From: Akkermansiaceae bacterium | GTDB lineage: Bacteria; Verrucomicrobiota; Verrucomicrobiia; Verrucomicrobiales; Akkermansiaceae | Direction of reading: 5' to 3' | Length of the DNA: 64,000 nucleotides | Assembly: GCA_029253285.1 (NCBI GenBank) | Contig: JAQWZU010000106.1 | Span: 16,758 to 80,757 of the forward strand | In this document: piece by piece, positions 38,768 to 40,716 of the stretch | Numbering within the stretch: position 1 is the first letter of the stretch | How the letters are laid out: each line of letters opens with the position of its first letter | Position numbers and translations under genes: made by a program | Notes under the pieces: generated by a model | Databases searched by the model: none | The model's input: the letters and a program-made list of their open reading frames with translations, nothing else | What the model was told of the DNA's origin: nothing

Positions 38768-39005
38768 ATGGCAATCTCTATCAAGAGCCCACTACGAAAA
38801 AAGAGAGACTTTTACCGCCAGCTGCGCTGGTGCGAACCTTGGTTCCAAGAGGCCATCGACCGCCTGAAGAAAGAACGCGGAGAGACGAATCGGGAGAATG
38901 GAAATCAGAAATTATATTTTTCTCACTCCCCCCCCCGGCCAGCTAGGACTTTCCTACCGCGGTCTCATCCTGCCTCAACAACAAAAAACGAGTGGTACGG
39001 GATGA
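38768..39005 (+). pseudogene. Small ORF interrupted or re-registered at a 9-C homopolymer
   Basis: MAISIKSPLRKKRDFYRQLRWCEPWFQEAIDRLKKERGETNRENGNQKLYFSHSPP then C9 at 38928-38936; the nominal frame runs antisense through a tRNA. Confidence 0.45.
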
Positions 39006-39068
39006 CGGACTCGAACCGCCGACATACTCGGTGTAAACGAGTCGCTCTACCAACTGAGCTAATCCCGC
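38993..39068 (-). tRNA. tRNA-Val (anticodon TAC), CCA encoded
   Basis: Minus strand GCGGGATTAGCTCAGTTGGTAGAGCGACTCGTTTACACCGAGTATGTCGGCGGTTCGAGTCCGTCATCCCGTACCA: full cloverleaf. Confidence 0.93.
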
Positions 39069-39170: not shown

Positions 39171-39635
39171 ATGCATTTGCGCTTCACGGAAGAAGAACTC
39201 GCCACTCTCGTAGAGATGGTCAGCCTGGCTGCGGAGGTGGCAAACTTAAACCCTGAAGAGAGCGGATCAGCTGATTTGGCGCGCTTTGAGGCTGTCGAAA
39301 GCAAGGTTCTCGAGTCGGCCAAGCACGCCGGGATGGCGGAATGGATCGAGTTCGACCAGCAACGGAGCAAGAACCGCGTGACGGAGAAATTCCAGGCCAA
39401 TTCCTATTTCCAGCGCTGCATCGAAGAGTTCCGTAATGCCCATTTCTGGGAAGAACTCATGATTCGTCTCGCCGAGCGGGATCTCATCAAGGAGATGGGC
39501 GAAGAAGCCTATCTCGCGATGAACGAAGAAGCCCGCCGCAAAAAAGCCGAGCCCCGCGAAAAGCGCTATTGGGCCAAATTCCAAAAAAAAGGAATCAGCC
39601 CGCTCCATTGGGTGGAACCCAACGAAGACCTCTAA
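39171..39635 (+). CDS. Hypothetical helical protein
   Basis: 154 aa ORF, charged/helical; 50 bp upstream of the kinase-like gene. Confidence 0.7.
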   Translation: MHLRFTEEELATLVEMVSLAAEVANLNPEESGSADLARFEAVESKVLESAKHAGMAEWIEFDQQRSKNRVTEKFQANSYFQRCIEEFRNAHFWEELMIRLAERDLIKEMGEEAYLAMNEEARRKKAEPREKRYWAKFQKKGISPLHWVEPNEDL

Positions 39636-39684
39636 GTCGCGTTTCTGCGTTTTCATTCCCCAACTTCTCCCCCATCTTTCTGTC

Positions 39685-40716
39685 GTGATCACGCGACGAA
39701 AGACCTTTTACCCGATCTCGGATTCCCTCCGAAACTATCTCGCGCACTACGGCCGGCTTTCTGAAGTCCCTCTCGTCTACGACGAACTCCTCCGCTTCAC
39801 CGGCTCCATCCCCTACGAAAACCCCAAAGGCGAGGAAACTCTCTGGCTGGAGGTAATGTATCCTCCCGAGGTTATGGCCGAGCTCCGACCCAAGCTCACC
39901 AGGATCTATTCCATGCTCAAAATCGGCGACGACTTGAGCCTCGCCGATCACCTTACTGTTGAGCGCATCGACTTCGGCGAGTTTGGAAACTCCCGCCCAT
40001 TCCGCATCCGCATCACCAACCTCTTTAACGGCAACTCGGATTATTATTATGTCAAACACGCCGATGCTTCCCGACTCTTTGGCCTGGAGCTGGAACACAT
40101 CCTCTCGCCCAACCGCATCAACTACCTCGTCAATGGCAACACCTTGATCGAGGAACACATCGCAGGCGTTCCGGGCGATGTCTTCATTCGCGACTACCTC
40201 TCCGACCCGGCCCTCAATCACGTCCGGGTCGCCAAGGAATTTGTCAAATTCGGCGAACGTTGCTTTCTTCGTATGCTCGGCGACATGCGCACGGTGAATT
40301 ACGTTGTCGATATCACGCCTGACTTCGAGGAAGTGCAATACCGCGTTCGTCCCATTGACTTCGATCAACAATCATACGAAGGCAAGCTCTCGGTCTACCG
40401 CGCCCACATGTTTCCTGACAACCGTCCGGTGGAAGAGTTGGTGCGCTCCCACCTCAACGATCAAACGATACTGCAATACCGCGCCGAAGAGCACCTCCAA
40501 ATGAGCCGTCGGGCCAAAGTCGAACGCAATCGCCTCAAAGCCGTCCTCACCGTAATGAATCGCACCAACCTAGCGCCTCACGAACACGTGGTGGAACTCC
40601 GCGAAGCGATGGTCGAGCGCTATGGCTCGCACGCCTTCGAGGCCTGTGAATCGATGGGAGCCCTGACCGCGACCCACCTCCAACAAGTCCTCGACCTTAC
40701 TCCACGCCGAAGTTGA
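39685..40716 (+). CDS. Hypothetical protein with APH/HipA-like kinase motifs
   Basis: 343 aa; 'YYYVKHAD', 'LIEEHIAGVPGDVF', 'FLRMLGDMRTVNYVVDI', 'RPIDFDQQ'. Confidence 0.7.
   Translation: MITRRKTFYPISDSLRNYLAHYGRLSEVPLVYDELLRFTGSIPYENPKGEETLWLEVMYPPEVMAELRPKLTRIYSMLKIGDDLSLADHLTVERIDFGEFGNSRPFRIRITNLFNGNSDYYYVKHADASRLFGLELEHILSPNRINYLVNGNTLIEEHIAGVPGDVFIRDYLSDPALNHVRVAKEFVKFGERCFLRMLGDMRTVNYVVDITPDFEEVQYRVRPIDFDQQSYEGKLSVYRAHMFPDNRPVEELVRSHLNDQTILQYRAEEHLQMSRRAKVERNRLKAVLTVMNRTNLAPHEHVVELREAMVERYGSHAFEACESMGALTATHLQQVLDLTPRRS

Follow-up and report, generated by a model that had tools for sequence, protein, structure and literature searches.

A divergent kinase-fold protein family of Verrucomicrobiota and Bacteroidota, probably a stand-alone PKL-type enzyme

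Two co-oriented open reading frames in a 64,000-nucleotide stretch of an Akkermansiaceae genome (contig JAQWZU010000106.1), hereafter the window, raise the question of whether the longer one encodes a kinase and the shorter one its dedicated partner. The original prediction had described them as an APH/HipA-like kinase of 343 aa with a highly charged helical protein of 154 aa encoded about 50 bp upstream. Both reading frames are present on the same strand, 49 bp apart, downstream of an opposite-strand tRNA-Val gene, and the four motifs described for the 343-aa protein were located at residues 123-127, 154-167, 198-210 and 221-229 (Table 1). Within-genus comparison gave a pN of 0.06-0.15 versus a pS of 0.66-0.83 for the kinase-like gene, and a pN of 0.18-0.24 versus a pS of 0.71-0.84 for the 154-aa gene. 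Since pN lies far below pS in each case, both are real genes under purifying selection. The 3′ end of the kinase-like gene shares 20 bp with a gene running towards it, whose 271-aa product probably carries a signal peptide and matched no family; convergent genes of a similar kind flank the kinase-like gene in two other loci (L014 and L017).

Table 1. Features of the locus, in window coordinates
Feature	Position	Strand	Remarks
tRNA-Val(tac)	38993-39068	-	Syntenic landmark for showing that sister genomes have lost the 154-aa gene
Charged helical protein gene, 154 aa	39171-39635	+	ATG start; real gene, upstream neighbour
Kinase-like (PKL-fold) protein gene, 343 aa	39685-40716	+	GTG start
FGNSRPFR, residues 100-107	39982-40005	+	Position of the glycine loop, between N-lobe strands one and two; invariant N102, P105 and R107
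VKHADASR, residues 123-130	40051-40074	+	K124 ends strand 118-125; K124, D127 and R130 (K..D..R) invariant
Predicted helix 128-140 (helix-C position)	40066-40104	+	E137 invariant, E135 nearly so
Hinge-like LIEEHIAGVPGDVF, residues 154-167	40144-40185	+	E156, H158, G161, P163 and F167 invariant
Catalytic-loop candidate LGDMRTVN, residues 198-205	40276-40299	+	L198, G199, D200, M201 and N205 invariant
Mg-binding (DFG-position) candidate DFD, residues 225-227	40357-40365	+	Invariant
Convergent gene, 271 aa	40697-41512	-

The AlphaFold2 model of the 343-aa protein (pLDDT 89.6, pTM 0.88) displays a bilobal kinase layout, with the N-lobe sheet, helix C and helical C-lobe that are features of the PKL fold. 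Three N-lobe strands (residues 90-98, 106-112 and 118-125), the last of which ends at K124, are followed by the helix 128-140. Next come the strands 147-150 and 153-157, the hinge-like segment 158-163 and the helices 164-171 and 179-195; the loop 198-205 then precedes the strands 206-212 and 217-223, the DFD at 225-227 and further helices. The strand lysine, helix, hinge strand, catalytic loop and DFD are therefore arranged in the kinase order in this model. The N-terminal part, of about 88 residues in the family, is not a typical kinase element and carries the invariant residues K6, R24, Y32, W54 and Y75.

A Foldseek search of the model against the PDB listed 50 matches, all of them kinase-fold proteins (kinases or pseudokinases), including 31 at E<=0.001. 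The top matches were PI3K-delta, the lanthipeptide kinase CurKC, Vps34, CK1, LegK4 and Bud32, and the named top matches in a viral structure library were likewise kinases. TM-scores to solved kinases were low (TMq <=0.41, TMt <=0.43, with large rmsd), which places the match at the level of the superfamily rather than close to any one family. The prediction of a divergent kinase fold is thus supported by the bilobal model and by the listed matches. Of the four kinase families it had proposed for structural comparison (APH, HipA, CotH and Fam20), the last two were absent from the 50 best PDB matches listed and gave no Pfam match.

Conservation was analysed on 173 distinct homologs of the 343-aa protein, with a minimum pairwise identity of 40% and a median of 52%. 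The family alignment is nearly gap-free, its members being 40-99% identical, and 44 of 336 columns are strictly invariant. All six preselected positions, K124, E137, D200, N205, D225 and D227, are among them (chance p ~4e-6), so the catalytic motifs are not a product of chance. Of the two observations that had been named beforehand as counting against the prediction, a model lacking a bilobal kinase fold and motif residues that vary among homologs, neither was made. Q229, in the segment V221-RPI-D225-F-D227-QQ, is also strictly invariant over the 173 sequences. The key residues of the PKL superfamily include K72, E91, D166, N171 and D184; of the ten in total, only one is reported to be indispensable in every family (Kannan and colleagues, PMC1821047). 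K124, E137, D200, N205 and D225 match these five residues in order, the correspondence being drawn from order and secondary structure. PKL H164 of the HxD motif has no equivalent, its position being occupied by the invariant L198. The original prediction had seen here the D-to-N spacing of HGDxxxxN with the histidine replaced by leucine, and D200, N205 and L198 are indeed all invariant. In the window protein, this loop continues as L198-G-D200-MRTV-N205-YVVDI. Across the family it reads DMRxxN in 160 of 173 sequences and DMHxxN in the other 13, all carriers of LGDMHxxN being Bacteroidota sequences; this form of the loop is similar to those of HipA and PI3K.

The relation to known kinase families was then considered at the level of sequence. 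The 343-aa protein matched no Pfam, NCBIfam, PHROGs or PADLOC family, and a sequence search of the PDB yielded no meaningful match, even with a 38-member profile. Neither PF01636 (APH) nor HipA_C (PF07804) was matched at E<=10 by the window protein or the 38-member set, and PF00454 (PI3/PI4K) was matched at this threshold by none of the 38 members. In profile-profile comparison (hhalign, with APH proteins of the same class), scores to APH and HipA were not significant. The sole local alignment with the APH profile paired LGDMRTVN...IDFDQQ with HGDFHPGN...YDFDY, which is where a match would be expected, whereas the HipA profile did not align there but elsewhere; global alignment to either was uninformative. 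An unrelated neighbour cluster used as a control (c25, possibly a set of antisense ORFs) scored above APH, and the APH-like signal at the catalytic loop and Mg motif is therefore suggestive only. A search for PF00454 relatives for the same comparison returned only short fragments, from two genomes belonging to a single genus. With no Pfam matches, and no significant profile similarity to APH or HipA, membership in any of APH, HipA_C and PI3/PI4K was rejected, and the "APH/HipA-like" label is not supported. A search of open-access papers found no description of the family, which, by the libraries searched, is apparently an undescribed one within the known PKL superfamily.

The kinase-like gene occurs in 44 of 58 related genomes, as a single copy in each, at 49-99% identity to the window copy. 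In a 188-genome sample of the class it was likewise found in 44 genomes, and it was absent there from the large Akkermansia-like genus g3 of the same family. A scan of named genomes confirmed more than 570 relatives, including Verrucomicrobiales MAGs, Roseibacillus and Haloferula. The best 80 of these belong to Verrucomicrobiota, to Bacteroidota (Pontibacter, Hymenobacter, Rufibacter, Algoriphagus, Roseivirga and Sediminibacterium) and to one Fibrobacterota MAG. About a quarter of the Bacteroidota genomes sampled carry the gene (69 of 248), 68 in single copy and one (G429) in two; the second, more divergent copy (G429:C3:105230-106207, E 2.7e-110) is the sole duplicate seen. Among 81 Fibrobacterota genomes, the gene was found only in the starting MAG itself. 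This Fibrobacterota-labelled MAG (L136), with none of the 80 others in the phylum sample carrying the gene, may reflect a transfer or a mislabelled contig. Plasmid, phage and viral-contig searches found no copy of the gene, and a mobile or phage origin was rejected on these grounds. A quick tree separated the phyla with three label changes, against a shuffled mean of 31, which points to mostly vertical descent with a few old transfers. As judged from these sequences, the family is chromosomal, usually single-copy and mostly vertically inherited.

Regarding the upstream gene, its product belongs to a helical family of its own (A2), in agreement with the helical character predicted for it. Its structure model (pLDDT 85) gave no fold match at E<=0.001, the best hits (E 0.7) being HTH/DtxR-type helices. 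The family (seen also at L196 and L198-L203), whose invariant residues are E15-M16, L19, F92-W93 and R99, is spread over genomes of the bacterial family, the order and the Opitutales-like f17, and is present in nearly all sampled Akkermansia-like (g3) genomes. The gene adjoins the kinase-like gene in 17 genomes of the window genus, and it does so too in g8, a related genus, in Roseibacillus and in near relatives. In the 188-genome class sample, hand tallies from the search tables gave 44 genomes with the kinase-like gene, 39 with the 154-aa gene and 20 with both. The two are adjacent in only one of these 20, the window's own genome; in the other 19 they are separated by roughly 100 to 570 kb or sit on separate contigs. 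In 19 of its 39 genomes, all of genus g3, the 154-aa gene occurs without the kinase-like gene. Within the window genus, three loci (L014, L017 and L020) retain the junction between tRNA-Val and the kinase-like gene but lack the 154-aa gene, and in a fourth (L021) it is reduced to a remnant beside an intact kinase-like gene. In another locus (L009, genome G014), a frameshift splits the 154-aa gene upstream of an intact kinase-like gene, by decay or assembly error. The dedicated two-gene unit initially proposed thus reduces to an adjacency confined to the window genus and near relatives. A role as dedicated partner or adaptor was rejected in view of the unlinked and kinase-free occurrences and the natural losses. 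We take the 154-aa protein to serve a function of its own, the shared orientation of the two genes being no more than a local feature.

Taken together, the invariant catalytic positions, the bilobal model and the listed Foldseek matches make the assignment of the 343-aa protein as a divergent PKL phosphotransferase well supported. We consider it a cytosolic stand-alone PKL-fold enzyme forming its own family, with a probability of about 0.7. We infer ATP binding, phosphotransfer and the class of substrate as follows. ATP would be held between the two lobes, where residues 100-107 may form the nucleotide loop and K124, paired with E137 of helix C, would hold the phosphates. Mg would be bound by N205 and D225, with D227, while D200 in the LGDMxxxN loop would activate the acceptor, to which the gamma-phosphate would be transferred. 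As for the substrate, gene neighbourhoods were compared over 120 loci using a crude ORF-based caller, which called no kinase ORF at 18 of them; recurrent neighbours were confined to closely related genera and none was found conserved beyond them, so the genomic context names no substrate. We lean towards a housekeeping kinase of a cytosolic metabolite, because the gene is usually single-copy, chromosomal and under strong purifying selection, and because its product lacks sensor and membrane domains while its hinge and Mg segment are APH-like. A protein kinase is the slightly less probable alternative.

One form of the latter, a protein Ser/Thr kinase of PI3K/PIKK-like architecture with one dedicated protein target, would be a special case of the kinase reading that differs in substrate. 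PI3K-delta and Vps34 (TMq 0.40-0.41), as well as PI4KIIIbeta, are among the best fold matches, and the K..D..R spacing that follows the lysine strand resembles the PI3/PI4K signatures, as does the GD[M][RH]..N loop. This sub-case is nevertheless doubtful, as PF00454 is unmatched in the 38 members and neither a regulatory domain nor a linked target gene was detected. A toxin kinase of the HipA type, for which the 154-aa protein would serve as antitoxin or adaptor, would agree with two co-oriented genes so close together in the window and with a GDM[RH]xxN loop that recalls the HipA catalytic loop. It is nonetheless the least probable reading: HipA_C is unmatched, the distribution and copy number of the kinase-like gene are housekeeping-like and not mobile, and the 154-aa gene, besides being frequently kinase-free or unlinked, is absent, decayed or frameshifted beside intact kinase-like genes, losses that a toxin-antitoxin reading would not withstand. 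As a general model, a HipA-type toxin-antitoxin system is refuted by this natural loss.

Two further explanations concern the fold and its chemistry. A PKL fold with non-kinase chemistry, such as the AMPylation performed by SelO or the glutamylation performed by SidJ, or a pseudokinase that binds nucleotides, appears unlikely. The repurposing of kinase folds has precedent, as described for SidJ (PMC6858067). The absence of the HxD histidine and the N-terminal part with its invariant residues fit such a change of chemistry. The standard catalytic and metal positions, however, are without exception invariant, which argues against a pseudokinase, and active kinases that lack the HxD histidine are known as well. 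That the motifs arose by chance in an unrelated conserved protein without a kinase fold is improbable: the lack of any sequence-level match to a kinase family and the low TM-scores would be compatible with it, but the model is of high confidence, two structure libraries consistently list kinases as its matches, and the predicted catalytic positions are invariant.

Kinase-fold families invisible to sequence profiles are a known blind spot. The 343-aa family retains 40-50% identity across two phyla with strictly invariant catalytic residues, yet is unmatched in the libraries searched. If active, it would constitute a new kinase family in the cultured genera Pontibacter, Hymenobacter, Algoriphagus and Roseivirga, where it is directly testable. 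More speculatively, this deep family of kinase-fold proteins, which the curated libraries searched do not contain, might carry out a conserved step of Bacteroidota and Verrucomicrobiota outside known pathways; its chemistry might be non-canonical, and its own N-terminal part, specific to the family, might bind the substrate.

Compared with known systems, the family shares with CurKC (7wj6, the kinase domain of a class III lanthipeptide synthetase) and Bud32 (4wwa) a compact kinase fold, both being among the top PDB matches, but TMq is about 0.3, identity 14-16%, and no linked lanthipeptide or KEOPS genes were seen. The GDM[RH]xxN loop resembles the D-x-H-x-x-N loop of HipA (PF07804), whereas DFD differs from the P-x-[YF]-D of HipA and there is no paired antitoxin. 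PI3K-delta (9gdi), Vps34 (2x6h) and PI4KIIIbeta (6gl3) stand with Bud32 and CurKC among the best Foldseek matches. Unlike these PI3K/PI4K enzymes, the family has no PF00454 similarity, a TMq of at most 0.41, no helical or lipid-targeting domains and, in place of their DRHxxN loop, no DRH in any member (DMH in 13 of 173); like them, it has a lysine with D at +3 and R at +6, a GDxxxxN loop and an IDF Mg motif. Unlike APH (PF01636), it carries an extra N-terminal alpha/beta part, aligns only in the C-lobe segment and has an invariant leucine in place of the histidine of H-G-D-x(4)-N (LGDMxxxN), with the spacing of D and N kept. With APH, it shares a hinge-like [L]-E-x-[hydrophobic]-x-G pattern and an HGDxxxxN...IDF[DE]-like C-lobe segment.
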